DNA from: Candidatus Eiseniibacteriota bacterium
GTDB lineage: Bacteria; Eisenbacteria; RBG-16-71-46; JACRLI01
Direction of reading: 5' to 3'
Assembly (NCBI GenBank): GCA_025351485.1
Contig: JANXVU010000014.1
Coordinates: 1 to 40,988, forward strand
DNA length: 40,988 nt
The position numbers and the translations under genes are program-made. The notes beneath the pieces are model-generated. The model was not told the origin of the DNA, ran no database searches, and saw nothing but the letters and a program-made list of their open reading frames with translations. Of the stretch, positions 18,286 to 36,041 are shown in pieces (position 1 is the stretch's first letter; the number at the start of each line of letters is the position of its first letter).

Positions 18286-19443
18286 ATGGCCAGGGCGAAG
18301 TCGCTGCGGGTCCTGGGGATCATGAGCGGAACCTCCGCGGACGGAGTGACGGTGGCCGGCGCATCCATTTCCGGCGATCCCGAGGCGCCCCGTGCGAAGT
18401 ACCTGGGGTTCCTGGAGCGAAGCTACCCGGCCGCGTTGCGCAGGAGGCTACTTGCGGCCGCCGAGCCGGGCGGAGGAAGCGCCGCCGAGGTCGCCTCGCT
18501 GCACGTGGAGCTGGCGGAGTTCTGGGCCGCCGCCGCGGACAGGTTCGCCGGCGGGCCCCGCGGCCTGGCGCGATACGATCTGCTGGCTTCGCACGGCCAC
18601 ACGCTGCATCACCGTCCGCCGTCGGGGGGCCGCCGGGGATTTTCGCTGCAGGTGGGGGATGCATCCACGCTGGCCGAGCGCACCGGGCTCACCGTGGTCC
18701 ACGATTTTCGCCCCCGCGACCTGGCGCTGGGCGGGCAGGGCGCGCCGCTGGTGCCGCGGGCCGACCTGGCGATGTTCGGCAGCCGGCGCGAGCCCCGGGT
18801 GGCGCTGAACCTGGGAGGCATCGCCAATCTCACGGTGCTGCCGGCGGTCGGCGGTCCTGGCGAGGTGCTGGCGTTCGACACCGGTCCCGGGAACATGGTC
18901 ATGGACGCCCTGGCTTTGCGCGCCACCCGCGGCCGCGAAGCGTTTGACCGCGGCGGAAAGCTGGCCTCGTCGGGACGGCCGGACGCGCGGCTCCTGCGCG
19001 GCTGGCTGCGGCATCCGTTCTTTGGAAAGCTCCCCCCGCGCTCCACCGGCCGCGAGGACTTCGGCGAGGCCTTCGCGCGCCCGGCCGTGCGTGCGGTGAG
19101 CTCGGGCAGGATCCGCTGGAAGGACGCCCTCGCGACCGCCGCGCTCCTGACGGCATTCAGCGTGGCTTCCGGCGTGCAGGCCTACGGCATTTCCGGTACC
19201 CGCCGGGTGATCGGGGCGGGCGGCGGAATGAAGAACCGCTTTCTGGTCCGGCTCCTGGCCGGATTGCTCCACCCCATCCGGCTGGAGCGCTCGGAGGACC
19301 ATGGCGTGCCGGGCCCGGCACGCGAAGCGCTGGCCTTTGCCCTGCTCGGCTACTTCACCTGGAACGGCGTTCCGGGTAATCTGCCTTCGGCCACCGGTGC
19401 CCGTCATGCGGCCGTGCTGGGCAGCCTGACTCCGGGGCGTTGA
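18286..19443 (+). CDS. anmK: Anhydro-N-acetylmuramic acid kinase
   Basis: Hydrolyses the 1,6-anhydro ring and phosphorylates to MurNAc-6-P, which is the MurQ substrate. The 385-residue protein has the ATP-binding MSGTSADGVT near residue 14, DLLASHGHTLHHRP, VVHDFRPRDLALGGQGAPLVP, ALNLGGIANLTVLP, FDTGPGNMVMD and GAGGGMKNRFLV. These are ASKHA-fold and AnmK-specific motifs, and the length fits the family. It sits two bases behind the permease. Together with murQ and the importer it makes a coherent salvage route for cell-wall amino sugars. Confidence 0.95.
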   Translation: MARAKSLRVLGIMSGTSADGVTVAGASISGDPEAPRAKYLGFLERSYPAALRRRLLAAAEPGGGSAAEVASLHVELAEFWAAAADRFAGGPRGLARYDLLASHGHTLHHRPPSGGRRGFSLQVGDASTLAERTGLTVVHDFRPRDLALGGQGAPLVPRADLAMFGSRREPRVALNLGGIANLTVLPAVGGPGEVLAFDTGPGNMVMDALALRATRGREAFDRGGKLASSGRPDARLLRGWLRHPFFGKLPPRSTGREDFGEAFARPAVRAVSSGRIRWKDALATAALLTAFSVASGVQAYGISGTRRVIGAGGGMKNRFLVRLLAGLLHPIRLERSEDHGVPGPAREALAFALLGYFTWNGVPGNLPSATGARHAAVLGSLTPGR

Positions 19444-19475
19444 TGCGGCCCCGGGAGACGTTCAACGGAGGAATG

Positions 19476-20762
19476 ATGCGGCTCCATGGAGCGTGGTTCC
19501 TGTTCGCGGTCCTGCTGTGCGGTTGCGCCGCCATGCGCCAGAGCGTGCGGGAGGGCCTGTCCACGGCCGGCCAGGAGCCGTGGATCCGCGTGGGACTCTC
19601 GAGCGACGTCTCCACGTTCGAGATGACCTCCGACCAGGACATGATCCTGACCATCCGAGACGCGCAAGGAGGCCGCCGCCGCTCTCCGCGCCAGATCGGC
19701 CGGGAGCTGCGAATCGGCCCGGAAGGCGGGATTGGTCTGCAGGGCGGGCACGACTATCGGGAGACGTTGCCGGAAGGAGACACCATCGTGGTGGACTTCC
19801 AGTCTCATCCGCTGGAGAACCGCTTCGCCTGGAACGGTCGCCACTACACCGGAAGAATGATGGTATTCCGCAACGCCCGCTCCGGGTTCAACGTGGTGAA
19901 CGTGCTGCCCATGGAACGTTACCTTGATGGAGTGGTGCCGGCCGAAATCGGCGGGCCGGCGAACGGCTCCGCCGAGGCGGTCAAGGCGCAGGCGGTGGCT
20001 GCGCGCACCTACACCGTCTATTTTTTCGGGCGGCGGGCCTCGGAAGGGTTCGACCTCTTCGGCACCACGGAAGACCAGGTGTACGGCGGCCTGGAGTCGG
20101 AGAAGCCCGCCATCAGCGCGCTGGTCGCCGAGACCCGCGGCAAGGTGCTGTTCTCCGAGGGCAGGCCGGTGCGCGCGATGTATTCCTCCAATTGCGGCGG
20201 CATGTGCGCCTCGCTGGACGAGGCGTTCCCCAGCTCGGCGGAATCCTGCCTGATCCCGCACCGGGACCGCGCGCCCGACCAGGACCCGGGCAGTTCGTTC
20301 TGCTCCGCGGCATCGGTGTACCGTTGGAAGGAGGAGTGGACGGTCCAGGAATTCGAAGGGCTGCTGGCCCGGAACGGCCCCGCCGACTGGCGCACCGAGG
20401 ACGGCCAGCTTCGCGGCCGCGTGCTGGACGTGCGGGTGGGCGAGCGCAGCGCCTCGGGCCGCGTGAAACGCCTGGACATCGAGACCACCACCGGCGTGCT
20501 ACAGTTGGACGAAATGAAGATCCGCGCCACGCTTCGCCGGCACGGCGACGGGGATCCGATCCTGCGCAGCACGCTGTTCAAGATCGCCGTGGACTTTGAC
20601 GGGGATACTCCGGTGAAGGTGGTGGCGTCCGGAGCGGGCAACGGTCATGGCGTGGGCCTGTGCCAGTACGGCGCCAGGGGAATGGCATCGGCGGGCTATC
20701 GGCACGACCAGATCCTGCTTCACTACTACCGCGGCGCACAACTGGCTTCGCTCTATCCCTGA
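19476..20762 (+). CDS. SpoIID/LytB-domain lipoprotein, probable peptidoglycan hydrolase
   Basis: SpoIID-like proteins are lytic transglycosylases that cut denuded glycan strands. The 428-residue product has a lipoprotein signal (AVLLCGC). Core motifs are MERYLDGVVPAEI, EAVKAQAVAARTY, the repeated SSNCGGMC segment, and the C-terminal GHGVGLCQYGARGMASAGY with HYYRGAQL. ATG 19476 is chosen because GGAGGA lies at 19467-19472 and the lipoprotein signal follows at once. The earlier in-frame codons at 19440, 19443 and 19473 remain possible. It ends the salvage operon and could generate anhydro-sugars that AnmK uses; that link is inference. Confidence 0.9.
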   Translation: MRLHGAWFLFAVLLCGCAAMRQSVREGLSTAGQEPWIRVGLSSDVSTFEMTSDQDMILTIRDAQGGRRRSPRQIGRELRIGPEGGIGLQGGHDYRETLPEGDTIVVDFQSHPLENRFAWNGRHYTGRMMVFRNARSGFNVVNVLPMERYLDGVVPAEIGGPANGSAEAVKAQAVAARTYTVYFFGRRASEGFDLFGTTEDQVYGGLESEKPAISALVAETRGKVLFSEGRPVRAMYSSNCGGMCASLDEAFPSSAESCLIPHRDRAPDQDPGSSFCSAASVYRWKEEWTVQEFEGLLARNGPADWRTEDGQLRGRVLDVRVGERSASGRVKRLDIETTTGVLQLDEMKIRATLRRHGDGDPILRSTLFKIAVDFDGDTPVKVVASGAGNGHGVGLCQYGARGMASAGYRHDQILLHYYRGAQLASLYP

Positions 20763-20812
20763 AGGGTTGAAGCGGCGGATCCGGGGGGCGGCAAAAGGGG
20801 ACTCCCCCTCGG

Positions 20813-20841
20813 TTGACTCGGACCGGGAATCCTGCTACTTT
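20813..20841 (+). promoter_or_regulatory. Promoter of tRNA-Asp
   Basis: TTGACT (20813-20818, 5/6), 17 bases, TACTTT (20836-20841). The expected start is around 20849, about 15 bases before the mature tRNA. Confidence 0.6.
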
Positions 20842-20863
20842 CCCCTAGGTTTGACGCTGGTGT

Positions 20864-20940
20864 GGTGCTGTAGTTCAGTCGGTTAGAACGCCTGCCTGTC
20901 ACGCAGGAGGTCGCGAGTTCGAGTCTCGTCAGCACCGCCA
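20864..20940 (+). tRNA. tRNA-Asp (GTC)
   Basis: A complete 77-base cloverleaf with encoded CCA. The acceptor stem pairs GGTGCTG (20864-20870) with CAGCACC (20930-20936); the discriminator base is G. The anticodon arm is CCTGC-CTGTCAC-GCAGG (20891-20907) with anticodon GTC. The T arm is GCGAG-TTCGAGT-CTCGT (20913-20929) with one G-U pair. It has its own promoter and terminator, so it is transcribed separately. Confidence 0.97.
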
Positions 20941-20947
20941 TCTCGTA

Positions 20948-20991
20948 AACGCCCTGTCCGCAATTAGTTAGCGGCAGGGCGTTCGTCTTTT
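20948..20991 (+). terminator. Rho-independent terminator after tRNA-Asp
   Basis: AACGCCCTG (20948-20956) pairs perfectly with CAGGGCGTT (20975-20983), extended inside by CCGC/GCGG (20958-20961 and 20971-20974) with one bulged T and an AT-rich loop. CGTCTTTT follows. Confidence 0.9.
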
Positions 20992-21034
20992 CAGCCCCCG
21001 CTTCGGCTTGCCGGTCACTCCTCTGTCGGGCCCC

Positions 21035-21050
21035 ACGAACTATTTCGTAG
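21035..21050 (+). promoter_or_regulatory. Interleaved short inverted repeats upstream of the first DUF5916 gene
   Basis: ACGAA (21035-21039) and TTCGT (21044-21048) flank CTAT, and CTA (21040-21042) and TAG (21048-21050) overlap them. The place, 137 bases before the ATG at 21187 of an operon that encodes a BlaI-type repressor, makes it a candidate operator. It does not match the classical TACA-TGTA BlaI site, and no convincing -35/-10 pair is seen in 20992-21186. Confidence 0.2.
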
Positions 21051-21186
21051 ATTGCGTGCAACCTTCTTCCTTGTCTTTCCGTCCCAAACCCTGTCGCGTG
21101 CCACGCGGGCCCCGGTTGTTCTCGGCAGCCGGCCGCATGAAATTCCAGGGCGCCGCCCTGGCCCCGTCCCCGGAGGAGCGCAGCTC

Positions 21187-23541
21187 ATGATCCGATCCGA
21201 CCGTTCGCCGAGAGCCCGCGAATTTTTCGCCCTGGCCGTCGTCGCCGCCCTGGTGGCGCTCATCGCCCCCGCGGCCGGCGCCCAGACCGACACCACCGCC
21301 GCGGCGCCAAAGAAGCTCCAGGTCATGGACTACTCCATCCACCCCGCTTCGGGCCCTATCGTGATCGACGGAGTCCTGGACGAAGCCGCCTGGGGCGACG
21401 CCCTGGAGGTATCCGACTTCCGCGAGTTCCGGCCCGGCGATAACCTGGCACCCAGGGCGCGAACGGTGTGCAAGGTCGCCTACGACCACGACCATCTGTA
21501 CTTCAGTGCGCGGTGCTTCGATCCCGAACCGGCCAAGATCCGGGCCCACCTCACCGACCGCGACCGGCTGTACAACGACGACTTCGTGGGGCTGTCGATC
21601 GACACGTTCCTGGACCATCGCACCGGCTACGAATTCCTGGTGAACCCGCTGGGCATCCAGGGCGACCTGGCCATGAGCAACGGCGGGGACGAGGACGACT
21701 CGTGGGACGGGCTGTGGCAGAGCGCGGCGCGCGTCGACTCGCTGGGCTGGACCTGCGAGGTCTCGATCCCCACCCGCACCCTGCGCTTCCGGGACGTACC
21801 GGTGAACCAGTGGGGCTTCAGCTTCTTCCGGACCTGGCCCCGCGACAGCCGCTACCAGTTCATCTCGAACCGCACCAGCCGCGACGAGCCGTGCTGGATG
21901 TGCCAGTACGACCACCTGGATTCGCTCAGCGACCTGGAGGCCGGCCGGAACCTCCAGGTGCTGCCCTACGCCACGCAGTCGCTGGTGGGCACCCGCTCCG
22001 CGCTGGGATCTCCCTTCAAACGGGACGAAGCCACCAAGGTCGGCGCGACCGTGAAATGGGGCATCTCCCCGAGCATCACTCTGGACGGAACGCTTCGGCC
22101 GGACTTCGCGCAGGTCGAAGCCGACGAGTCGCAGATCAGCGTGAACAACGCGTCCGCGCTGTACTTCAACGAAAAGCGGCCGTTCTTCCTGGAGGGCAAC
22201 ACCATTTTCCAGGGAATCGGCAATCTCTACTATAGCCGCAACATCAACGACCCCTCGCTCGCGGGCAAACTCACCGGGCGCGAGGGGCGATTTCAGTTCG
22301 GGGCGCTGGTGGCGCACGACCGGACCACGCCGCTCATCCTGCCCTACAGCGAGGGAAGCGTCGGCATCGCCAGCCTCGGCCGTTCGAGCGACGACTTGCT
22401 GCTGCGCGGCCGCCGCGACCTGATGAAGGACAGCAACATCGGCTTCACCCTCACCGATCGCGAGTACGGTGCGGGAAACACTTCCGCCACGGAAAGGGCA
22501 TCCGGCACGGGATTCAACCGGCTCGGCGCGGTGGACGCGCAGATACGCCTCGCCGACCACCTGCGCTGGACCTGGTACGTGGCGGGTTCTTCCACGAAGG
22601 ACGTCGCCGATCCCGACGGCTACATTGGAAACCCCGGGGAGACTCATTCGGGATACTCCACCTACCAGGAACTGTTCTACAACAGCCGGGTGTACAACGG
22701 CGGGGTGTGGTTCACCAGCAAGTCCCACGACTATCGGGCCGACCTGGGATTCCAGGACCAGAACGACTACAAGGCGGTCGAGGGCTGGCACGAGCTGGAT
22801 TTCAGCCCCGCCGGCAAGGTCGTGGACTACATCCAGCCCACGTTCTACTTCATCCACAGGATCGACGGGCAGAACCGCCTCCGCGAGCAGGTGTTCCAGT
22901 CGCAGGTCGATGTCCGCTTCAAGGGCCAGTGGGAGATCAACGTGGCCGCGGCCACCAAGGCTACCCGTTTCCTGGACACGCTCTACCACCACGAGGCGCT
23001 GCGCGTGAACATCGACAAGCGCGGCGGAGGCCTGGTCGGGTTCCACGGCAACTACCGCACCGCCCACGATGTGTACCGCGGCGGGGAGCACGACTTCCCG
23101 CTCGCCACCCGCGTCGCCGGCGCGCGCAATTTCACCGCCAGTTTCGATGTTCGTCCCACCAGCAACCTGTTGCTGACGGTTGCCGGCCAGGACTTCCGCC
23201 TGAGCGACCGCGACGCGGACAGCCTGCGCGTAGGCGTGGAACTCGGGCTGCTGCGCGTAACCTACCAGTTCACGCCTCGGCTGTTCGTGAGGATGTTGAC
23301 CCAGTACCAGCGCTACAACCAGCCGTGGCTGGCGCCCGAAGGCAGGATCTACAAGTCGGTCACCAACCAGTTCCTGATGAGCTACAAGCTGAACTACGCC
23401 ACCGTGTTCTTCCTGGGCCTGAACGGGGACTACGACAACTCCCTGGCCTACGAGGACGGCAACATGCCGCCGGAGGGCGCAAAGCTGGCGCAGAACGCAC
23501 GCGGCGCCTTTGCCAAGATGCAGTACCTGTGGTCTTACTAG
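21187..23541 (+). CDS. DUF5916 outer-membrane protein with CBM9-like N-terminal domain (copy 1)
   Basis: A 784-residue exported protein of unknown function. It has a signal peptide (about residues 1-32), then a family 9 carbohydrate-binding-like beta-sandwich (IVIDGVLDEAAWGDA, KVAYDHDHLYFSARCFD, TGYEFLVNPLGIQGD), then a long DUF5916 region rich in alternating hydrophobic strands and aromatic residues. It ends in YLWSY, an aromatic terminus suited to BAM-dependent outer-membrane insertion. CWMC (Cys236 and Cys239) has a counterpart in the second copy at 26608. ATG 21187 is chosen for GGAGGAG at 21172-21178 and the following signal peptide. The blaI-like gene starts ten bases after its stop with AAGGAG, so the two are probably cotranscribed. 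Confidence 0.85.
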   Translation: MIRSDRSPRAREFFALAVVAALVALIAPAAGAQTDTTAAAPKKLQVMDYSIHPASGPIVIDGVLDEAAWGDALEVSDFREFRPGDNLAPRARTVCKVAYDHDHLYFSARCFDPEPAKIRAHLTDRDRLYNDDFVGLSIDTFLDHRTGYEFLVNPLGIQGDLAMSNGGDEDDSWDGLWQSAARVDSLGWTCEVSIPTRTLRFRDVPVNQWGFSFFRTWPRDSRYQFISNRTSRDEPCWMCQYDHLDSLSDLEAGRNLQVLPYATQSLVGTRSALGSPFKRDEATKVGATVKWGISPSITLDGTLRPDFAQVEADESQISVNNASALYFNEKRPFFLEGNTIFQGIGNLYYSRNINDPSLAGKLTGREGRFQFGALVAHDRTTPLILPYSEGSVGIASLGRSSDDLLLRGRRDLMKDSNIGFTLTDREYGAGNTSATERASGTGFNRLGAVDAQIRLADHLRWTWYVAGSSTKDVADPDGYIGNPGETHSGYSTYQELFYNSRVYNGGVWFTSKSHDYRADLGFQDQNDYKAVEGWHELDFSPAGKVVDYIQPTFYFIHRIDGQNRLREQVFQSQVDVRFKGQWEINVAAATKATRFLDTLYHHEALRVNIDKRGGGLVGFHGNYRTAHDVYRGGEHDFPLATRVAGARNFTASFDVRPTSNLLLTVAGQDFRLSDRDADSLRVGVELGLLRVTYQFTPRLFVRMLTQYQRYNQPWLAPEGRIYKSVTNQFLMSYKLNYATVFFLGLNGDYDNSLAYEDGNMPPEGAKLAQNARGAFAKMQYLWSY

Positions 23542-23551
23542 AAGGAGCCTC

Positions 23552-23938
23552 ATGTCCAGGGACTTCCAGCGGCCCACCGAAGCGGAACTCGAAATCCTGA
23601 CCGTGCTGTGGCACCGGGGCCCGAGCACCGTGCGCGAAGTGCACGACACGCTCTCCCTGCGGCGCACGGTCGGCTATACCACGGTCCTGAAATTCCTCCA
23701 GATCATGGCGGAAAAGGGACTGGTGCGTCGAAACGAGGCCCAGCGCGCCCATGTGTACGAGGCGACCCCGCCGCGCGAGCAGACTCGCGGATTGCTGGTC
23801 CGGGACCTGCTGGAGCGGGCGTTCGGCGGCTCGTCGATGCAACTGGTGATGCACGCTCTGTCCCAGAAGAAGGCCACTCCCGAGGAGATCGCCGAGATCC
23901 GCAGGTTGCTGGACCGGATGGAAGGAGACTCTGCATGA
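23552..23938 (+). CDS. BlaI/MecI/CopY-family transcriptional repressor
   Basis: A 128-residue winged-helix repressor of the penicillinase-repressor family. The N-terminal domain has the signature TEAELEILTVLWHRGPSTVREV, then TVGYTTVLKFLQIMAEKGLVRR as the recognition helix and wing. The C-terminal helices serve as the dimerisation arm that BlaR1-type signalling cleaves. It overlaps the M56 gene by four bases, the classical blaI-blaR1 pairing. No beta-lactamase or PBP gene is nearby. The likely targets are the flanking DUF5916 genes and its own operon, by inference. Confidence 0.9.
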   Translation: MSRDFQRPTEAELEILTVLWHRGPSTVREVHDTLSLRRTVGYTTVLKFLQIMAEKGLVRRNEAQRAHVYEATPPREQTRGLLVRDLLERAFGGSSMQLVMHALSQKKATPEEIAEIRRLLDRMEGDSA

Positions 23939-25782
23939 TCCCCTTCGATACCGTCCCGCCCCCTGTTGGCCGCGCGGTGGAGGCCCTGGGATGCGCGCTG
24001 CTGCACTCGGTGTGGCAGGGCGCGGCGTGCGCCGCGGGACTGCTCGCCTCGGACGTCGCGCTCCGCCGATCCCGCCCCGAGGTCCGCTATCTGTGCGCCT
24101 GCACCGCCCTTCTGCTTGCGCTGGCTCTTCCGGTTTCCACCGCACTCCAGAACCTGCGCCCCACCCCTGGCAGCTCGTCACTCGCGTCCACGACTGTTTC
24201 GGCCCTTGGCAGCGACCTCCCTTCCGCTCCTTCGCCAGGCACCGTTCGCGCGATCCTCGGATCCGGAGCCTTGCTGGCGACGGTGGAAGTCTCCGTGCGC
24301 CCCGCGGCTCTCCGCTTCATGCCGTGGGCCGTGGGGCTGTGGGCGGTTGGAGTGCTGGTTCTGTCGCTGCGCCTCCTGGGAGGCTGGTGGATCGCGCGGC
24401 GTCTCGCCCGCACCCGCGCCGGCGCGGAAGTGGATCGGCTGCGGGGCACGCTCGAGCATCTGGCCCGGCGCATGCGCGTTTCCGCGCCCGTCCGCATCTG
24501 CGAATCGGTCCTGGTGGAGGTGCCGACGGTGGTGGGGTGGCTTCGCCCGGTGATCCTGCTGCCGGTGAGCGTGCTGGCGTGCATGTCGCCGGCCCAGCTC
24601 GAGGCCCTGCTGGCCCACGAGCTCGAGCACATCCGGCGCCTGGACTACCTCGCCAACCTCACCCAGGCCTGGGTGGAAACGCTGCTCTTTTATCATCCCG
24701 CCGCGTGGTGGATCTCCTCCCGCATCCGGGCGGAGCGGGAACATTGCTGCGACGACGCCGCGGTGGCCGCGTGCCGGAATCCGGCGCTCTACGGGCGCGC
24801 GCTGGCGGCGCTGGAGCAGTTCCGCGGCCGCACACCGAAGCTCCTGCCGGCGGCGACCGGCGGCCCGCTGCTCTGGCGGATCCGGCGGCTGGCGGGGCAG
24901 AGGACCCCTGTGGCCCCGTCGGCCGGGTTCGCGGCGGTGATCCTGGTCTCTTCGGTCATGGCCCTGGCCGCCGTCACCGCGGCCGGCTCGACCCCGGCGG
25001 TGCGCGGTGTGGCGCGCGCAAGCTGGGTGCGCGCGGTTCGCATGGGAGCCTGGGCTGGTCGCGCGTACGGGGCCGGCCCGCACCGGGCGGCGGCGCTGGT
25101 GCGCTTCCCGGCCTCTCCCTCGGCGGCCCCGGTTGCCGGGGTCCTCGCCGATGCGCCGGTCGCCGAGGCCGATGCCGGTTCCGAAAACGACCGGGCCGTG
25201 CTCGCCGACAACGCAGTCGATGCCGGGAATCTCGCCGATCTGGAACGCCTCGGCTATGGCGGCCTGTCTGCCGAGCAGGCCGTGGAACTTCGGGAAGGAG
25301 AAGTGTCCGCCGACTACATCGCGGCCATGAACCGGGCTTTCGGCTCCAGGCTGACCGCCGCCCAACTGTTGCTGCTCAAGCAGGAGGACGTGGATGCGCG
25401 CTACGCTTCCGAGGTGTGCGAGTCCGGCCGCGCCCGTCTCTCGCCGGAGGACGTGGTCAGGCTGCACGCCGAGGACGTGTCGGGCGCCTACGTGGCCGAA
25501 CTGCGCGCACTGGGGCTCGGCGGCCTCGGGATCCGCGACTGGATCGCCCTGCACGGCGAGGACGTGAGCACCAGCTTCATCGCCAGCATGAAGGCGCTCG
25601 GACTGGAAGTCCTGACCCCCGCCGAGCTAATCCGCCTGCACCAGGAGGACGTGACCCCCGAGTTCGTGCGCCGCATGCGGCGCGAGGGATTTGAAGGAAG
25701 TTCCGTGGAGGAGATTATCCGGCTCCGCCAGCGCGCCCCCTCCGTGGGAGCACTCGAGAAGGACAAAGGAGACTACCTGTGA
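23935..25782 (+). CDS. M56 (BlaR1-like) membrane metalloprotease with six C-terminal 29-residue repeats
   Basis: A 615-residue inner-membrane zinc protease and probable signal transducer. Hydrophobic segments lie near residues 8-38, 52-70, 129-152 and 331-350. The active site is HELEH at 228-232, and Glu269 in ERE-H-CCDD is the likely third ligand. The region after the last membrane segment should be periplasmic. It lacks the penicillin-binding sensor of BlaR1. Instead an Ala-rich linker is followed by six tandem 29-residue repeats (residues 429-602), pattern (S/T)xx(F/Y)(V/I)xx(L/M)xxLG, then (E/D)L(I/V)xLHxEDV. The next gene has the same repeat. It overlaps blaI and the repeat gene by four bases each. 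The stimulus is unknown. Confidence 0.87.
   Translation: MIPFDTVPPPVGRAVEALGCALLHSVWQGAACAAGLLASDVALRRSRPEVRYLCACTALLLALALPVSTALQNLRPTPGSSSLASTTVSALGSDLPSAPSPGTVRAILGSGALLATVEVSVRPAALRFMPWAVGLWAVGVLVLSLRLLGGWWIARRLARTRAGAEVDRLRGTLEHLARRMRVSAPVRICESVLVEVPTVVGWLRPVILLPVSVLACMSPAQLEALLAHELEHIRRLDYLANLTQAWVETLLFYHPAAWWISSRIRAEREHCCDDAAVAACRNPALYGRALAALEQFRGRTPKLLPAATGGPLLWRIRRLAGQRTPVAPSAGFAAVILVSSVMALAAVTAAGSTPAVRGVARASWVRAVRMGAWAGRAYGAGPHRAAALVRFPASPSAAPVAGVLADAPVAEADAGSENDRAVLADNAVDAGNLADLERLGYGGLSAEQAVELREGEVSADYIAAMNRAFGSRLTAAQLLLLKQEDVDARYASEVCESGRARLSPEDVVRLHAEDVSGAYVAELRALGLGGLGIRDWIALHGEDVSTSFIASMKALGLEVLTPAELIRLHQEDVTPEFVRRMRREGFEGSSVEEIIRLRQRAPSVGALEKDKGDYL
25219..25740 (+). repeat. 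Six tandem 87-base coding repeats (29 residues each) in the M56 gene
   Basis: Repeats cover residues 429-457, 458-486, 487-515, 516-544, 545-573 and 574-602 with no insertions. Conserved positions are an aromatic at repeat position 4, Leu/Met at 8, Leu/Phe near 11-12, an acidic residue near 19-20, Leu/Ile near 21-24, and an EDV end in four of the six copies. The DNA copies have diverged, so this is a protein-level repeat. Confidence 0.85.
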
Positions 25783-26504
25783 AACCGGCCACATACGGTC
25801 TTGTTGCCTTGATGGCCCTGGCGTTCGCGGGCCCCGTGCGCGCGGACATGACCGGGAGCTGGGAAGTGCGGGACTACCGCTCCAACGGCAAAGTGTCTTT
25901 CAAGGTCCGCTTCCGGGATGGCGGCCGCTCCTCGTGGACCTCATCGTCCTCGGACGTCCCCCTCGCGGGGCTTCGCGGTCTTTCGGCCGACCTCGCCCAG
26001 CGGGGAGTGGGAGACGTTCGTTTCGAGGTCAGCCGCGATGCGGGGTCGCTTGAATGTGCCGGCAGGATGTCGGGGGGCAGGGGGAGCGGATCGTGCCGTT
26101 TCGTCGCCGATCCTTCATTTGTCGAGGCGCTGCGTGCGTCGGGCTACCGGGCTCCCTCCGAATCGGACCTTCTGACCTGCTGGATCCACGACGTGAGCCG
26201 GACGTTCCTGGCCGATCTGCATTCTCTGGGCTACCGCTCTCTGGCCGCCGATGAGCTCATCAACATGAAGATCCAGGGCGTCTCGCCGCAGTACGTGCGG
26301 GAGCTGGGGAAGCTCGGTTACTCGCCGGTTCCGGTGGACCAGCTGATCAACATGAAGATCCAGGGAGTTTCCCCCGAATTCGTGCGAAGAGTGCTGGCAC
26401 GCTCCCATACGCGTCCAAGCGCCAGCCAGCTGATCGAAATGAAGATCATGGGCGCCGATGCGGCCGCGCCCGAGGCGCCCCGGCGCCACAGCCGCGCCAT
26501 GTGA
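25779..26504 (+). CDS. Secreted protein with four copies of the M56-type 29-residue repeat
   Basis: A 241-residue protein with a signal peptide ending around residue 22 (GPVRADMTG), a beta-rich N-terminal domain (SWEVRDY...VSFKVRFRDG...) and four 29-residue repeats at 111-139, 140-168, 169-197 and 198-226. The middle copies share ELINMKIQGVSP / QLINMKIQGVSP. The repeat has the same length and pattern as the one in the neighbouring M56 protein. The GTG start overlaps the M56 stop (GTGA) and follows AAAGGAG at 25765-25771. No catalytic motif is visible. A natural reading is a secreted partner or decoy for the M56 sensor, but there is no direct evidence. I do not know a named family for it. Confidence 0.8.
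   Translation: MKPATYGLVALMALAFAGPVRADMTGSWEVRDYRSNGKVSFKVRFRDGGRSSWTSSSSDVPLAGLRGLSADLAQRGVGDVRFEVSRDAGSLECAGRMSGGRGSGSCRFVADPSFVEALRASGYRAPSESDLLTCWIHDVSRTFLADLHSLGYRSLAADELINMKIQGVSPQYVRELGKLGYSPVPVDQLINMKIQGVSPEFVRRVLARSHTRPSASQLIEMKIMGADAAAPEAPRRHSRAM
26109..26456 (+). repeat. Four tandem 87-base coding repeats in the secreted repeat protein
   Basis: Repeats start at residues 111, 140, 169 and 198 without gaps. Copies two and three share the stretch ATCAACATGAAGATCCAGGG (26260-26279 and 26346-26365), hinting at a fairly recent duplication of that unit. Confidence 0.85.
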
Positions 26505-26593
26505 GCCGGGGCCGGCCCCGTCGTCCCACGGTGGACCAGGGAATTTGCCCGGCATCCCCGTGCTTTTTTCCGCCCTTTTCCGGCCCGCTCCAT

Positions 26594-26599
26594 TAGACT
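26594..26599 (+). promoter_or_regulatory. -10 element of the second DUF5916 gene (leaderless geometry)
   Basis: TAGACT is followed by eight bases (CCCGGGCC) and the ATG at 26608. No Shine-Dalgarno and no clear -35 are visible. The 103-base gap also holds the palindrome CGGGGCCGGCCCCG (26507-26520) and two T-runs near 26563-26578, which might act as a weak terminator for the upstream operon. Confidence 0.4.
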
Positions 26600-26607
26600 C
26601 CCGGGCC

Positions 26608-28896
26608 ATGCTCCGACCTGAATTTCGCGCTGCTGCGCCGCTCCTCCTGGCCATGGGCCTCCTTCTTCCTGCAACCGGGGCCAAATCCGCCGATTCTTCC
26701 GCCACGCCCCCGCTGCGGCATGCCCACACCTATCATGCGGAGCCGGCCACCGGCCCCATTCGCGTGGACGGTGTCCTGGACGATCCGGCCTGGAATACCG
26801 CCGTCCAGATCGACGAAATGTTTGACGTCCAGCCCGGCGACAACGCGCCACCGAAGGTGCGGACCCTGTTCCGGGTGGCCTACGACCACGAGCGCCTGTA
26901 CTTCTCCGCGCGCTGTTTCGATCCCGAGCCCGGCAGGATCCGCCGCCACCTGAGCGATCGCGACAAGATCTTCGACGACGACTACGTGGGCGTAATCCTG
27001 GACACCTTCCGCGACCAGCGCACCGGCTACGAGTTCTTCGTGAACCCGCTGGGAATCCAGGGGGACCTGACCCGCAGCGGAGACAACGAAGACGAATCCT
27101 TCGATTGCCTGTGGGAAAGCGCCGCCCGGGTGGATTCCCTGGGCTGGACGGCCGAGTGGTCGATCCCCACGCGCAGCCTGCGCTTTCCGGTCCGCGACAG
27201 CTTGAGCTGGGGGATGGAGCTGGTGCGGGTGTGGCCGCGGGAGAGCCGCTACACGCTGGTGTCCCAGAGGATGGACCGCAACGATCCGTGCACGCTTTGC
27301 CAGGCCTCGATCCTGGACTCCATCCAGTCGCTGTCGGTGGGCCGGAACCTGGAAGTTCTGCCCTACGTCACGCAGTCCTTCCTCGGGACTCGCGACTACC
27401 TGGATCGGCCCTTCAACCAGCTGAACCGCACCGACGTGGGGTTCGGGATCAAGTACGGCATTTCTCCCAGCCTGACCCTGGACGCCACCGTGCATCCCGA
27501 CTTCGCCCAGGTCGAGGCGGACCAGAACCAGGTCGACGTGAACACCCAGTCGGCGCTGTTCTTTCCGGAGAAGCGGCCGTTCTTCCTGGAAGGCGCGAAC
27601 ACGTTCCAGTTTCCCGGGAACATGTACTACTCGCGAAACATCTCCGCTCCCAGGTGGGCGGTCAAGCTGACCGGCCGGCAGGGCAAATTTCAGATGGGCG
27701 TGCTGGCGGCGCGCGACGATTCCACGACCTACGCGCTCCCCACGCGCGACGGAAGCGACCTGGTCAGCCTCAGCCGGCCTTCCAGCGACCTGGTGGCCCG
27801 CGGCAAGGTGGGAATCCTGGAAGATTCCTACCTCGGCTTCCTGGGCACGGCGCGGGATTTCGCAGGCGGTCACAGCCTGATGGGCAACCTGGATGGCGTG
27901 ATCAGGCTGACCCGGCAGCTCCAGTGGACCTGGAACGCCGGCACTTCGGCCACCCGAGATCCGGCGGGATTCGCGGAAAATCCGGAAGGCTCCACCCCGG
28001 ACCATTCCGGGGGCAATTTCTACCAGGAACTGTTCTTCTTCAGCCGGCACTACAACGGCGGGATCTGGTACCTGTTCGAGGGGCCGCACTACCGGCCCGA
28101 CCTGGGCCTGGCCGGAAGCAACGATCTGAACCAGTGGGAGAGCTACCACGAGTTTCCCTACCAGGCCGACGGAAAGGTGGTGGAGCTGGTGCAGCCCTCC
28201 ATCGATTTCTTCCTGCGCAAGGACCACGACGGTCTGGTGCGTTCCCGGTTTCTGCATCCGGAGGTCCTGGTCCGTCTCAAGGGCCAGTGGGAGGTGCAGG
28301 CGCGCTCCACGCTCGAGCACCAGGTGTTCTTCAACCCGGATATTCCGCGGGAACTCGTCGACAACCGCAAGGCCGCCTCGGTCACGTTTCGCAGGAAGGG
28401 CGGCGGAGTCCTTACAGGAGACTTCAGCATTCGGCTTGCGGAGGATCCCTATTACCGGCTGGCCGTCCTGGCGAACGAGCGGAACTACGATGCCTCGGCC
28501 ACGCTGCGGCCCACTTCCCAGCTGGCCCTGAACCTGGAAGGGCACTCCCTGAGCTTGCGCGACCAGGGTGCGGACACCCTGCTGGCATCGCAAAGGCTGG
28601 CCCTGCTGCGGGCCAGCTACCAGTTTACGCCGCGCCTGTTCGCTCGCCTGCTGTTGCAGTACGAGAGGCGGGAACGGCCCTGGAAGAGCGCGACCCGCCG
28701 GATCTACAACGATCTTTCCAGCCAGTTCCTGCTGAGCTACAAGCTCAACTATGCCAGCGTGTTCTTCCTCGGCTATGACGGAGACCGGCAGAACACCCTG
28801 GTCAACTTCGACGGTTCGTTGCCCGGCCCCGAGCCCGAGACTACCCAGGCGGCCAGGCAGGTGTTCGCCAAGATCCAGTACCTGTGGCGCTACTAG
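26608..28896 (+). CDS. DUF5916 outer-membrane protein with CBM9-like N-terminal domain (copy 2)
   Basis: A 762-residue paralogue of the protein at 21187, with the same order: signal peptide (about 1-28), CBM9-like domain (IRVDGVLDDPAWNTA, RVAYDHERLYFSARCFD, RTGYEFFVNPLGIQGD), then the DUF5916 strand-rich region ending in YLWRY. Shared segments include HPDFAQVEAD/RPDFAQVEAD, EKRPFFLEG and YQFTPRLF. A CxxC (Cys228-Cys231, CTLC) lies at the place of CWMC in copy 1. It is on the same strand 103 bases after the repeat-protein gene and probably has its own promoter. The function is unknown; an outer-membrane barrel that binds glycan is a reasonable but untested guess. Confidence 0.85.
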   Translation: MLRPEFRAAAPLLLAMGLLLPATGAKSADSSATPPLRHAHTYHAEPATGPIRVDGVLDDPAWNTAVQIDEMFDVQPGDNAPPKVRTLFRVAYDHERLYFSARCFDPEPGRIRRHLSDRDKIFDDDYVGVILDTFRDQRTGYEFFVNPLGIQGDLTRSGDNEDESFDCLWESAARVDSLGWTAEWSIPTRSLRFPVRDSLSWGMELVRVWPRESRYTLVSQRMDRNDPCTLCQASILDSIQSLSVGRNLEVLPYVTQSFLGTRDYLDRPFNQLNRTDVGFGIKYGISPSLTLDATVHPDFAQVEADQNQVDVNTQSALFFPEKRPFFLEGANTFQFPGNMYYSRNISAPRWAVKLTGRQGKFQMGVLAARDDSTTYALPTRDGSDLVSLSRPSSDLVARGKVGILEDSYLGFLGTARDFAGGHSLMGNLDGVIRLTRQLQWTWNAGTSATRDPAGFAENPEGSTPDHSGGNFYQELFFFSRHYNGGIWYLFEGPHYRPDLGLAGSNDLNQWESYHEFPYQADGKVVELVQPSIDFFLRKDHDGLVRSRFLHPEVLVRLKGQWEVQARSTLEHQVFFNPDIPRELVDNRKAASVTFRRKGGGVLTGDFSIRLAEDPYYRLAVLANERNYDASATLRPTSQLALNLEGHSLSLRDQGADTLLASQRLALLRASYQFTPRLFARLLLQYERRERPWKSATRRIYNDLSSQFLLSYKLNYASVFFLGYDGDRQNTLVNFDGSLPGPEPETTQAARQVFAKIQYLWRY

Positions 28897-28919
28897 AGGC
28901 TCGCCGGGGCGGATTCGGC

Positions 28920-28946
28920 TTGACGCATTCGGGTGGTGGTGATAAT
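28920..28946 (+). promoter_or_regulatory. Putative promoter of the acidic protein-agmatinase operon
   Basis: TTGACG (28920-28925) and GATAAT (28941-28946), each 5/6, with a short 15-base spacer. The start would be near 28953, followed by a leader of about 54 bases with GGAG just before the ATG at 29007. Confidence 0.45.
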
Positions 28947-29006
28947 TCCGGCTTCTAGGGCAACGCATCCCCCGCATCCCGGACACCACTTCACGGAGAC
29001 GGAGAC

Positions 29007-29219
29007 ATGAGCGCAGTCGCAGAAACAGCATCGGCCGCGGCGCCGCCGCGGCGCACGGGCGGGGACGAAGAGGAGCACTGGCTGGATCATCTGGAGTTGG
29101 ACCGGGACGGCGACGGAGCGGCGCATGACGACCTTCCGGATCCGTTCGGCGAAGAGGCCCTGGCGGGCGAGGGCCACGAACTGCTCGACGAGGACGTCGA
29201 CGAGGAAGAGGAATTTTGA
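29007..29219 (+). CDS. Small, highly acidic protein of unknown function
   Basis: A 70-residue protein with 25 Asp/Glu residues, only three Arg and no Lys, ending in DEDVDEEEEF. There is no signal peptide, membrane segment or Cys. It has a good ribosome site (CGGAGACGGAGAC before the ATG) and its own upstream promoter. Its stop overlaps the agmatinase TTG start (TTGA), so the two are translationally coupled. The GAGGAAGAGG that encodes its acidic tail also serves as the agmatinase ribosome site. I do not recognise a family; it could be a small regulatory partner or a DNA-mimic-like protein, but nothing shows this. Confidence 0.65.
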   Translation: MSAVAETASAAAPPRRTGGDEEEHWLDHLELDRDGDGAAHDDLPDPFGEEALAGEGHELLDEDVDEEEEF

Positions 29220-30106
29220 GCCATCCTGATGTGCCCTACCCGCAGGGTCCCGGGCCCGACTTCGGGGGATTGCCCGCGGAACTGACCGAATTCACCACCG
29301 CGCGCACTCTGATCCTGCCGGTGCCCTACGACGGAACCACGTCCTACGTGCCGGGTACGCGCCGCGGCCCCGCGGCCATCCTGACTGCCTCCCAGAACGT
29401 CGAACTCTACGACGAGGAGCTCGAGTCCTCCCCGTGCGACACCGGCATCCACACCCTGCCGGAGCTGGACATCTCCGACGAGGGCCCCGAGGCCACGGTC
29501 CGCCGGGTGGAGGAGGCCTCCCGCTGGGCCATGTCCCACGGCAAGTTCGTGATCATGCTGGGAGGGGAGCACTCGCTCACACCCGGTGCGGTGCGGGCGG
29601 CACGGGAGCGCTGGCCCGATCTATCGGTGCTGCAGATCGACGCCCACGCCGACCTGCGCGACACCTACCGGGACACGCCCTTCAGCCACGCCTGCGCCAT
29701 GCGCCGCGTGCGCGAGAGCTGTCCGCTGGTGCAATTGGGCATTCGCAACCTGTCGGCCGAGGAGCACGCCTGGGTGAAGCAGGAACGGATCGAACTGGGC
29801 TGGGGCAGCACGCGCAAGGACCAGGCGCGCTGGGACCACCTGCTTTCGACCCTCTCCCCGAACGTCTACCTGACCATCGACCTGGATGGATTCGATCCCT
29901 CGATCTGTCCGGGGGTCGGCACGCCCGAGCCGGGCGGCATCCTGTGGGAGGAGGGCCTTTCCATCCTCAAGCGGGTGTTCGCGGAGCGAAACGTTGTGGC
30001 GGCCGATGTCATGGAACTCTGCCCGCTGGCGGGAGATATCCGATCCGACTTTCTGGCGGCCAAGCTCGTTTACAAACTGGTCGGGTACCGGCAATCTACC
30101 GTGTAG
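29216..30106 (+). CDS. speB: Agmatinase (ureohydrolase family)
   Basis: Manganese enzyme that hydrolyses agmatine to putrescine and urea. The 296-residue protein has the ureohydrolase metal motifs GGEHS, DAHADLRDTY, the histidine of FSHACAMRRV, and TIDLDGFDPS. The N-terminal VPYDGTTSYVPGTRRGP is typical of agmatinases rather than arginases. The start is probably TTG at 29216, which overlaps the upstream stop and follows GAGGAAGAGG; a GTG at 29231 is the alternative. Arginine decarboxylase is not in the window. An XRE-cupin regulator follows downstream. Confidence 0.92.
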   Translation: MSHPDVPYPQGPGPDFGGLPAELTEFTTARTLILPVPYDGTTSYVPGTRRGPAAILTASQNVELYDEELESSPCDTGIHTLPELDISDEGPEATVRRVEEASRWAMSHGKFVIMLGGEHSLTPGAVRAARERWPDLSVLQIDAHADLRDTYRDTPFSHACAMRRVRESCPLVQLGIRNLSAEEHAWVKQERIELGWGSTRKDQARWDHLLSTLSPNVYLTIDLDGFDPSICPGVGTPEPGGILWEEGLSILKRVFAERNVVAADVMELCPLAGDIRSDFLAAKLVYKLVGYRQSTV

Positions 30107-30881: not shown

Positions 30882-31936
30882 GAGTTTCCCGGCGCTGCCA
30901 CTTGCCCCCGGGGCCGCAGCAAGTAGTGCGAGACCATCCACTCCTGGCCGCCCCCATAGTTCCACAGCTCCGCGCAGGCCAGCAGGAAGACCCTCCAGTA
31001 CACCCACCACTTCCTTGAGTCCCCGGCCCCGTAGGTTCTTGCCAGGATGGATTCCACTTCCGATCTTGAACGGTCCATGTTCCGAAGCCACGCTTCCGCG
31101 GTGCGGCCATAGTGCGTGCCATCCACGCGCCAGTGGTCCGTCACCACGAGGTCCTGCTGGAAGTGGTAGAGCAAGTCGTCCGAAGGCATGATCCCGCCCG
31201 TGAAGAAGTGCCGGCCGATCCAGTCCTGCGGATCGTCGGAAAGGTAGGGGTAGGCGTATTCCCGGTGCGTGAAGATGTGCACGAATAGCCGCCCCGAGGG
31301 CTTCAGGAAGCCGGCCACCTTTCGGAGCAGCAGGTCGTAGTTGCGCAGGTGCTCGAACATTTCCACCGAGACCACCCGGTCAAAACGCCGCTCCAGCTCC
31401 AGGTCGTTGATGTCGCGGGTGAGGATCTCCACGTTGCCGAAGCCGCGCCGCGCGCACTCGCCCAGGATGTGGTCCCGCTGCCCGGAGGAGTTGGAAACTC
31501 CCAGGATCCGGGAGTTCGGATAGCGCTCCGCCAGGTACAACGAGAGCGATCCCCAGCCGCACCCCAGGTCCAGCACCTCCATGCCGTCTTCCAGCCGCGC
31601 GCGTTCGCAATACAGCGCCAGCATCCGCTCCTCCGCCTCGTCCAGGGTGCGCACTACGGGGCCCCACAGTCCCGAGCTGTACTTGAGGCGCTTCCCCAGC
31701 AGGCATCGAAACAGCTCCGCGGGCACCTCGTAGTGCTGGCGATTGGCGTCCGCGGTGTGGGTGGCGATCGCGGGCACGGCTCGCATCCAGGCAAGGAACT
31801 CGCGCTTGCGTTCCTGGGCCGCCTCCACGCCCCCGCGGGCTTCGTCCCTGAGCTTGCGTGCGAGCCGGGCACGGATGCCCAGGCGAATCAGCCCATCGGG
31901 CAGGAGCCCGCGCTCCATTAGATCGAGTGCATTCAT
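30878..31936 (-). CDS. CFA-synthase-like SAM-dependent methyltransferase (second copy)
   Basis: A 352-residue methyltransferase of the cyclopropane-fatty-acid-synthase superfamily. It has the entry segment [31 protein letters not shown] motif [34 protein letters not shown], and [14 protein letters not shown]. It lacks the N-terminal domain of classical CFA synthase and is clearly different from the gene at 32727. It is the last gene of the lipid operon and overlaps DUF1295 by four bases. Related proteins methylate lipids or small molecules; the substrate here may be an unsaturated or already modified acyl chain. Confidence 0.88.
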
Positions 31937-32730
31937 GGCGTGGGCGGGATCCGGCGCGGAAACCAGGGCACGAACGGGCTGGTTTCCCGCTGGTAGCGCC
32001 GGTAGTCGTCTCCCCGGCTTCGGATGGCCTGGGCCTCGGTGGGCGGGATGCCGGTCACAAAGAGCACCAGGTAGAGCAGCGAGGCCGGGGCCAGCAGCGC
32101 GATCCAGCCGAGCGGCGATCCGAGCGCGAGCAGCGCGAAGGCGCACCAGATCAGCCACTCGAAAAAGTAGTTGGGGTGCCGCGAATAGCGCCACAATCCG
32201 TCCCGGCAGGTGCGACCCCGGTTGGCCGGATCCGACTTGAAGGCGGCCAGCTGCCGGTCGGCCAAAGATTCCAGGGCCAGCGAAGCGGCCCACAGGAGGG
32301 CCGCGATCCCATCGATCGGCCGAAAGAGTTGCGCCCGGTCGCACGCGGCGGCCAGGAACGGATAGGACAGGAGCGCGGCGAGCGCCGCTTGCGCCTGGAA
32401 GAAGAGGAAGAAGAACCGCTGGGCGTTGGGCGCGGTGTCCTGCCGCAGCTTGACGTAGCGCCCCTCCTCGGGATGGCCCAGCACCCGGTCCATGAAGAGG
32501 TGCGCGGCCAACCGCAAGCCCCACAGGCCGCCCATCAGCCCCACCCGCAGTCGCCGGCCCGGATCCCCCGGAGCTGCAGCGGCGTAGAAAAGCGCCGAGA
32601 GTCCCAACCCGAGCGCCCACCCCACGTCCACGATTCCGGCATTTCCGGTGCGGCGCTGAACCAGCCAGAGCGCGGCCATCAGCAGCACCAGGCCGGCCAG
32701 GCCAAGGCCGAACAGTGTCCAGGCCGTCAC
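31933..32730 (-). CDS. DUF1295 (steroid 5-alpha-reductase-like) membrane protein
   Basis: A 265-residue polytopic membrane protein of the DUF1295 / isoprenylcysteine-methyltransferase-related family. About six or seven hydrophobic helices are visible, and the signature [16 protein letters not shown] lies near residue 185-200. The family includes NAD(P)H-dependent reductases of double bonds, so an acyl-chain reductase role is possible. The GTG at 32730 overlaps the CFA synthase stop, and its stop overlaps the next ATG, which fixes both ends. The start is also supported by the first hydrophobic helix beginning right after it. Confidence 0.86.
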
Positions 32731-34010
32731 GCCACGCTCCCGTGGGAATTGGACCCGGGCGCGCGCCCGGGTAGCCGTTCCAGCAGCAGGTGCACGTCCC
32801 GCGTGTGGCGCTCTTCGAATCCGGCCTCGCAGTAGCAGAAGTAGAAGTCCCACATGCGAACGAAGTCCTGGTCGAAGCCAAGGGCCAGGATGGCTTCGCG
32901 GCTGCGGAAGAAGTTCGCGCGCCAGCGCCGCAGGGTCTCGGCGTAGTGGGGCGTGAGGTCGTCCACCTGAAGCTCGCGCAATCCACCCGAGCGGTCCATG
33001 GCCTGCCGCAGCGCCCGAAGCGACGGAATGCAACTTCCGGGGAAGATGAAGCGCTTGATGAAGTCGACCGAGTCGCGGGCCGCATCGAACTCGTCGTCCC
33101 GGATCAGGATCGCCTGGATCAGGGCGGTGCCGCCGGGCCGGAGCAGCTCCGTGCACTTGCGGAAGTAGGTCTCGTAGTACTCCGCGCCCACCGCCTCGAT
33201 CATCTCGATCGAAACCAGCTTGTCGAAGTGCCCTTCCAGGTCGCGGTAGTCGCGCAGCAGCACCTTCACCCGGTCCTGGAGCCCCGCCTCATGGACCCGC
33301 TCCGTGGCCAGCTGGTGCTGCTCGCGGGAGATGGTGGTGGTGGTCACGCGGCAGCCGTGGTGAGTGGCGGCGTGCAGTGCGAAGCCGCCCCAGCCCGTTC
33401 CGATTTCCACCAGGTGGTCGTCTGCACCTAGTTGAAGTCGCTCGCAAATGCGCTCCATTCGCGCCACTTGGGCCTCTTCCAGCGTCATGCCCGGGCGCTC
33501 GAACAGCGCGCACGAGTACATGAGCGTCGGATCCAGGAACAACTGGAAGAATTCGTTGCCCAGGTCGTAGTGGGCCTGGATGTTCCTGCGGCTCCCGTGG
33601 CGCGTGTTGCGCTTGAGGGCGTGCGCGACCGCGCGGAACGGGGCGGCCAGTTTTGCCAGGCCCGCATCGGCCGAGCGCAGGGCCTGCGCGTTCTGCAGGA
33701 AGATCCGGCACAGGGCGGTGGGATCGTCGCACGACCATTGTCCCCGCATGTAGGCGCGTCCGGCGCCCACGGTGCCGCCCAGGACCGCCTGGGGGTAGAA
33801 GGCGGGGTCGTGCACCCACAGCGTGGTCGAGAGGCCGCCCAGCCGGCCAAAGGTGCGCATCTCGGCGCCTTCGGCCAGCTTCACCTGGCCCTGCTCGAGC
33901 CGGGAAAACACCGCCAGCAGCCGCGAGCGGGTGAAGATCTCCAGCAGGCCGGCGCTTCGCGCCCATTTCGCGCCCACCGGCAGCGGAGGAGACTTAAGGG
34001 TATCGCTCAT
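32727..34010 (-). CDS. Cyclopropane-fatty-acyl-phospholipid synthase family protein
   Basis: A 427-residue SAM-dependent enzyme that would add a methylene (or methyl) group to phospholipid unsaturated chains. The N-terminal third is the CFA-specific region ([20 protein letters not shown]), followed by [31 protein letters not shown] motif [42 protein letters not shown] and [11 protein letters not shown]. Both the length and these motifs fit CFA synthase. ATG 34010 overlaps the DUF1365 stop. An upstream desaturase in the same operon could supply the double bond it modifies. Confidence 0.92.
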
Positions 34011-34792
34011 GGCCGGGCCGGCTCCGGGTGGGCGCGGCCGCCCGGGGGATGGGGGACGCCCGGGACTCGCTTCAGCCACAGCCGAAGGGCATTCCAGTAG
34101 ATCTGCGCGACAACCGATCCGGTCATGAAGGGTTGAGCGAGCAGCGAACGGTTGAGCGACGCCGGCGAGATTTCACGCCGGCGCAGGGACAGGCTCGCAT
34201 CAAAGAGCTTCGCTCCGTTCCGCTCGTTCTCCATGTGCACGACCAAGCGTGGGCCCGGCGGCAGGAACCGCCAATCGTAGCCCATGTCCATTTCCATGAA
34301 CGGCGAGACGTGAAAGCTCTTCGCGAACCGGTGGCGCCGCCACGGGCCGGCCGCGGCCGCCGTGGACGGATCCAGCACGTAGGCGTGGCGCTCCTTCCAC
34401 GGCGTGTTGGTGATCTCGGCCACGATGGCCTCCAGAGCCGTCCCTCCGGGTGCATAGCAGTAGTAAAAGCTCACTGGGTTGAAGATGTACCCGAAGTAGC
34501 GCAGGTGGGTGAGGAGGCGGATCGGCCCCGCGGGGCGGCGACCCGTCTCTTGCTCCACCCGTTCCCGGACGGCCTGGTCCAGCGGGACATCCACGGGCCC
34601 CAGGTAGTCCCGGCGCCGGAAACTGGCCGGCGCGGGGCGCTCGTGGCCCCAGAGCGGCGTTCCCCGGAACAACCCGGGCAGCTCTTCCAGGTCCAGGTAC
34701 ATCATGAAGATCGGGTAACGGAACGAATGGTGCGCCGGATGGAAGCGCCGGTGCCGGACGAAACCGGCGTAGATGCAGCTGGCCCGGCTCAC
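34007..34792 (-). CDS. DUF1365 protein
   Basis: A 261-residue protein of the DUF1365 family (COG3496). Typical segments are IYAGFVRHRRFHPAHHSFRYPIFMMYLDLEEL, LLTHLRYFGYIFNPVSFYYCY, EITNTPWKERHAYVLD and KSFHVSPFMEMDMGYDWRF. The biochemical role is not established; the gene nearly always travels with the FAD oxidoreductase and a CFA-type methyltransferase, as here. GTG 34792 overlaps the oxidoreductase stop by four bases, and the protein begins just before the conserved IYAG strand. Confidence 0.9.
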   Translation of the reverse strand: MSRASCIYAGFVRHRRFHPAHHSFRYPIFMMYLDLEELPGLFRGTPLWGHERPAPASFRRRDYLGPVDVPLDQAVRERVEQETGRRPAGPIRLLTHLRYFGYIFNPVSFYYCYAPGGTALEAIVAEITNTPWKERHAYVLDPSTAAAAGPWRRHRFAKSFHVSPFMEMDMGYDWRFLPPGPRLVVHMENERNGAKLFDASLSLRRREISPASLNRSLLAQPFMTGSVVAQIYWNALRLWLKRVPGVPHPPGGRAHPEPARP

Positions 34793-36024: not shown

Positions 36025-36041
36025 GCAGGCCCCCGCTTCCT

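Follow-up and report, generated by a model that had tools for sequence, protein, structure and literature searches.

Most of what is known about BlaI/BlaR1 signalling comes from beta-lactam resistance and one copper switch, and the operator of the staphylococcal repressors BlaI and MecI is of the TACA/TGTA type. The staphylococcal systems pair a BlaI-family repressor with an M56 protease, and the same is seen in the locus analysed here, where the protease has a matching fold and an intact zinc motif and where, as in bla, a predicted operator lies at the presumed operon promoter. Unlike in BlaR1 and MecR1, the sensor appears to be a helical-repeat solenoid instead of a penicillin-binding domain, and no beta-lactamase or penicillin-binding protein was found as a target. 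The predicted operator also differs from the staphylococcal type, with the sequence TACGAA-N4-TTCGTA. There is nevertheless a parallel in design, since the sensor of BlaR1 resembles class D beta-lactamases (PMC7593790) and the M56 sensor of this locus shares its repeats with a secreted protein encoded next to it. A non-antibiotic system for comparison is that of Synechocystis, in which the BlaI-family regulator PetR is degraded by the BlaR1-family protease PetP in response to copper (PMC7896320). On the precedent of the bla paradigm and PetRP, such a gene pair is read by default as one in which a signal induces proteolysis of BlaI.

Organisation of the locus

The window, that is, the whole stretch of DNA analysed (40,988 nucleotides), is the entire contig C3 of an assembly of 3.44 Mb in 186 contigs that is 98.6% complete. 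A search of this genome returned one BlaI gene, one M56 gene and five DUF5916 matches. Five genes on the + strand, in the order DUF5916a-blaI-M56-SRP-DUF5916b, make up the locus (21187-28896), whose features are as follows:

20864..20940, + strand: tRNA-Asp(gtc), found with ARAGORN; it bounds the promoter region on the upstream side
21034..21049, strand not given: putative BlaI operator CACGAACTATTTCGTA, a single copy with one mismatch to TACGAA-N4-TTCGTA, the motif being taken from regions upstream of blaI in related loci
21187..23541, + strand: DUF5916a, exported protein with CBM9_1 and DUF5916 domains (Pfam PF19313, 2.8e-21; PF06452, 2.3e-7), first gene of the proposed operon
23552..23938, + strand: blaI, BlaI/MecI-family repressor (PF03965, 2.2e-27), recognition helix GYTTVLKFLQIM
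23935..25782, + strand: M56 membrane metalloprotease with a C-terminal repeat sensor (PF05569, 2.9e-27; profile and fold match to Staphylococcus aureus BlaR1)
24616..24630, + strand: zinc motif HELEH of M56 (residues 228-232), in invariant columns of alignments A1 and A3
25222..25734, + strand: predicted C-terminal solenoid of M56 (residues ~430-600), about six helical hairpins of ~29 residues (AlphaFold2 blocks, pLDDT mostly 88-97; repeat profile)
25779..26504, + strand: SRP, secreted repeat protein with a signal peptide, a beta domain (24-110) and a solenoid (112-223) (AlphaFold2, mean pLDDT 88), conserved partner of repeat-bearing M56
26608..28896, + strand: DUF5916b, paralogue of DUF5916a (Pfam; BLASTP), with no operator of its own in the motif scan

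A gap of 10 nt separates DUF5916a from blaI and one of 103 nt separates SRP from DUF5916b; blaI and M56 overlap in ATGA (23935-23938), and M56 and SRP in GTGA (25779-25782). An earlier note on this DNA had described five same-strand genes with the 10-nt gap and the two overlaps, flanked by two DUF5916 paralogues. Its coordinates proved exact, and Pfam confirmed the domains of all the products except SRP. The paralogy holds as well, with both flanking proteins matching DUF5916 and CBM9_1, sharing 48% identity in BLASTP and scoring 76 and 63 bits against PF19313 (gathering cut-off 22.6), although just the N-terminal part of that model aligns. Signal peptides, family membership and C-terminal aromatic residues make both of them candidate outer-membrane proteins.

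With regard to the surroundings, the tRNA-Asp ahead of the operon is itself immediately preceded by a gene for a SpoIID-domain protein (19440-20762). On the - strand, at 31103-36165, two cyclopropane-synthase-like (CMAS) genes and a gene for an FAD amine oxidoreductase resemble a fatty-acid modification cluster.

The M56 protease and its presumed repeat sensor

The M56 protein scores 96 bits against Peptidase_M56, for which the cut-off is 31. Its zinc residues H228, E229, H232 and E269 are invariant in the alignments, so that HExxH is followed by a downstream glutamate, and E269 is the candidate third zinc ligand. In the AlphaFold2 model (mean pLDDT 80), BlaR1-like membrane and protease parts are followed by a disordered linker and a hairpin solenoid. 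S. aureus BlaR1 (PDB 8exs, 8exp) is found by profile as well as by fold comparison. The Foldseek match to 8exs_A has an E-value of 9.5e-5 and a probability of 1.00, the overall TM-score being just 0.31 because the sensor domains differ.

In Pfam and NCBIfam searches the penicillin-binding sensor domain is absent from M56, which has the solenoid in its place, and the protein reaches 78.8 bits against the 400 needed for the BlaR1 beta-lactam sensor equivalog NF000326. It is very improbable that such a protein senses beta-lactams or peptidoglycan damage, as might be proposed from the BlaI/M56 pair and from the SpoIID-domain gene just upstream of the tRNA, with the domain missing and no beta-lactamase among the genes examined. 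The previous suggestion that BlaI/M56 signalling operates here apart from any beta-lactam gene is supported.

The solenoid is presumed to be an extracytoplasmic sensor. Its outward orientation is assumed by analogy with the BlaR1 sensor and from the fusion, at that position, of SRP domains that are elsewhere exported. M56 and SRP match each other directly in sequence (E 3.5e-7), and both are predicted to form the same kind of helical-hairpin solenoid, which bears out the repeats of ~29 residues. Profiles of these repeats (alignments A2 and A3) also match TAL-effector and designer PPR proteins in the PDB, with E-values down to 1.6e-12; homology was dropped in favour of probable repeat-on-repeat similarity, since the SRP model itself has no PDB match below E 0.001.

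SRP as the conserved partner of repeat-bearing M56 proteases

SRP matches no Pfam or NCBIfam family, and its model consists of a beta domain followed by helical hairpins. The weak Pfam matches of SRPs (LYTB, DUF732 and others) were inconsistent and have been discarded. To follow the association across genomes, relatives and one GTDB genome per species were searched and 94 M56 loci, with automatic gene calls, were classified with profiles made from the window proteins. Repeats of ~29 residues are found at the C-terminus of M56 in 32 of the 94 loci. An SRP accompanies 27 of these 32, as a separate gene in 24 and fused inside M56 in three (L041, L064 and L096); four of the remainder have no SRP, and at L079 the contig stops just past M56. 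SRP is missing from all 62 M56 loci that have no repeats, and the association has a Fisher P of 7e-19, a value that overstates independence owing to kinship among the loci. The repeat-less BlaI-M56 pairs of the sampled phyla differ in this respect, with other C-terminal regions and no SRP. BlaI adjoins M56 at nearly every locus classified.

Pairwise distances of BlaI, M56 and SRP correlate with r of 0.82-0.85 across 20 nonredundant loci, as expected of co-inherited genes and in part a reflection of common ancestry. Repeat-bearing M56 together with BlaI was found in Acidobacteriota, Myxococcota, Zixibacteria (in the fused form), Marinimicrobia (where SRP was not found) and the class of the window. 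Within this class the distribution is patchy, a strong M56 homologue being present in 6 of 47 genomes. The locus counts as a whole are not independent, because resemblance to the window M56 was the basis for choosing loci and many of them come from acidobacterial relatives. Judged from these sequences, the conserved unit is BlaI, a repeat-bearing M56 and SRP, in place of the five-gene cassette, and the conserved partner of the window M56 is SRP rather than DUF5916, a relationship that the earlier note had overlooked.

SRP-like repeat proteins also occur without M56 or BlaI at six loci of relatives from the same order (L043, L044, L046, L047, L048 and L049). No operator with up to two mismatches was found near these solitary genes.

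BlaI and its probable operator

BlaI matches Penicillinase_R (PF03965) over profile positions 2-114 of 115, at 96 bits against a cut-off of 22.6, and is thus a full-length member of the family. It also shows a weak CopY_TcrY match, and PetR/PetP, a BlaI-family regulator with a BlaR1-family protease, answers copper and not beta-lactams (PMC7896320). A switch that responds to copper or another metal, as PetRP of cyanobacteria and CopY do, is nonetheless quite improbable: BlaI reaches 44.2 bits against the 121.95 cut-off of the CopY/TcrY equivalog TIGR02698, the operon has no recognisable gene for metal transport or for a cuproprotein beside it, and a repeat sensor of this size points to a macromolecule or an envelope component as ligand. 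Unlike PetR-PetP, this locus has no plastocyanin or cytochrome c6 target, and it combines the large sensor with a secreted partner.

The regions upstream of blaI contain a palindrome that is often doubled, TACGAAGATTTTCGTTGACAATACGAAAGTCTTCGTA, and TACGAA-N4-TTCGTA is probably the BlaI operator. Within 350 bp upstream of blaI, it occurs exactly in 56 of 90 BlaI loci, with one mismatch in 12 and with two in 9. Outside these regions, a scan of 1.43 Mb gave no exact copy and five copies with one mismatch, among them the window site. The operator is mostly present as two copies at a distance of ~21-22 nt, which in most loci of the repeat group enclose TTGACA; as the second copy commonly follows directly after TTGACA, a repressor bound there would block the promoter. 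The recognition helix GYTTVLK..QIM is common to the window and the operator-bearing loci, and most operator-free loci differ from it. Both operator and helix are also common to many BlaI-M56 pairs without repeats. Across many bacterial phyla, the probable operator recurs next to switches related to this one. An earlier account of the operator or of the trio may exist in subscription journals, which lie mostly outside the literature searched.

The sole putative operator of the window, at 21034-21049, lies in the spacer between the tRNA and the ATG of DUF5916a, 138 bp before the start of this gene, as a single imperfect copy compared with the usual two in relatives. Extrapolating from the genome count of sites with at most one mismatch, which is three, about 2e-4 such sites would be expected in the 246-bp spacer. 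A motif scan gave no operator directly before blaI, where DUF5916a coding sequence lies, or at 26505-26607. Two regions had been put forward for BlaI footprinting; the predicted operator falls inside the first (20992-21186), and the second, 26505-26607, is the one in which the scan found none. A sigma-70 promoter scan of 20600-29300 returned no hit. The classical TACANNTGTA operator was also tried and rejected, its 38 window matches with up to two mismatches (25 expected) being scattered and none convincing at the promoter.

The one-mismatch operator upstream of DUF5916a suggests that DUF5916a-blaI-M56-SRP is probably a BlaI-repressed operon, which supports as probable the BlaI control of an operon headed by DUF5916a that had been proposed. 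On the simplest reading of the sequence, the operon begins with DUF5916a, which separates the operator from blaI.

DUF5916 genes as probable targets of BlaI

Besides the window site, the genome has two sites with at most one mismatch. The one at C97:2419 lies inside coding sequence and was dropped as a regulatory site. The other (C160:1980-1995, locus L153) is flanked by two genes that diverge from each other, one for a PIG-L family deacetylase and one for a DUF5916 protein, the start of the latter being 155 bp downstream of the site. Genome-wide, the motif with up to two mismatches is not in excess of a reversed control pattern (31 and 29 sites), and the case for the C160 site therefore rests on its position; from the site count, we estimate at ~5e-4 the chance that a stray site lies no more than 300 bp ahead of another DUF5916 gene. 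Operator copies before DUF5916a and before the C160 gene suggest that two transcription units with DUF5916 genes are probably under BlaI control in this genome. The DUF5916 matches on C160 (model positions 23-314) and on C113 (L155; 355-560) both reach contig ends, and these fragments are possibly one gene split by the assembly.

Elsewhere, the link between DUF5916 and the cassette is recurrent but rare. A full-length DUF5916 neighbour was found at 4 of 80 unbiased BlaI-M56 loci, namely L067, L087, L117 and L124. In L067, from Myxococcus eversor, it follows SRP on the same strand; L087 and L117 are from Gemmatimonadetes, probably of related lineages, and have a convergent DUF5916 gene. A further neighbour was seen at L056, in the relatives' set, where DUF5916 is close by in 2 of 31 M56 loci. 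M56 has no ~29-residue repeats at L056, L087, L117 and L124. All the DUF5916 neighbours lie within ~1.2 kb of the cassette, a distance that takes in just 16% of the flanking DNA. DUF5916 adjoins none of the four closest repeat-bearing homologues in the window's class, and in none of the trio-bearing relatives does a DUF5916 gene coincide with an operator site.

The five genes could still form a dedicated cassette, in which the DUF5916 barrels supply the BlaI/M56 sensor with its cognate input or serve as its output. The presence of DUF5916 on both sides of the trio, the operator sites before two DUF5916 genes, the arrangement in M. eversor and the closeness of all four neighbours in the unbiased loci are in keeping with this explanation, which we regard as unlikely given that most loci have no DUF5916 beside the trio, that no operator coincides with DUF5916 in trio-bearing relatives and that the other neighbours adjoin repeat-less M56 genes, two of them convergently. 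The conserved cassette of the earlier note is not borne out by the homologues of the class or by the sampled loci. Conversely, the trio might be an autonomous sensor to which the DUF5916 genes are bystanders that owe their place to duplication and to an accidental insertion downstream of the operator, ahead of blaI. About 29 of the 32 repeat-bearing loci do have the trio without DUF5916, and in M. eversor and Corallococcus the cassette has all but one of the sites with at most one mismatch. This account too seems unlikely, as the operator lies upstream of DUF5916a and not immediately before blaI, and another copy precedes a third DUF5916 gene, where a stray site would be rare by the estimate above. 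Operators before two DUF5916 genes, yet neighbours at so few of the sampled loci, suggest that DUF5916 is likely a BlaI target in this genome and not a conserved partner.

DUF5916 (PF19313) is not named in the literature searched, which excludes most subscription journals. For this family, without a known function in that literature, the operator would provide a first regulatory handle.

A proposed circuit

We consider it likely that DUF5916a-blaI-M56-SRP is an operon autorepressed by BlaI, with M56 as the sensor protease that cleaves the repressor. BlaI dimers would bind TACGAA-N4-TTCGTA and shut the promoter, and M56 would reside in the inner membrane with its zinc-protease domain turned towards the cytoplasm and the helical repeats on the outer side. 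A signal received by these repeats would switch the protease on and lead to cleavage of BlaI, the loss of which would derepress the operon together with the further DUF5916 gene on contig C160. DUF5916b would probably be transcribed by read-through from the operon. The solenoid shared by sensor and SRP, which recalls the resemblance between sensor and effector in bla, suggests a shared ligand or direct contact; SRP would most likely bind the ligand of the sensor or the sensor itself, as an effector or a feedback element.

Beyond this genome, it is possible, if not quite probable, that a widespread non-antibiotic branch of BlaI/BlaR1 systems exists, with an extracytoplasmic sensor of ~29-residue repeats and an induced secreted protein of the same repeats that share a ligand or bind each other, and with DUF5916 outer-membrane targets recruited in some lineages. 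A branch of this kind, in which the secreted partner is conserved and the operator readable, would make regulon and signal directly testable, and it includes cultured Myxococcus and Corallococcus among the Myxococcota. The operator motif alone enables the listing of probable targets in unannotated genomes. Away from any M56 gene, an exact TACGAA-N4-TTCGTA is present at G028:C22:208879 (L166), upstream of a gene for an exported protein that is a possible regulon member.
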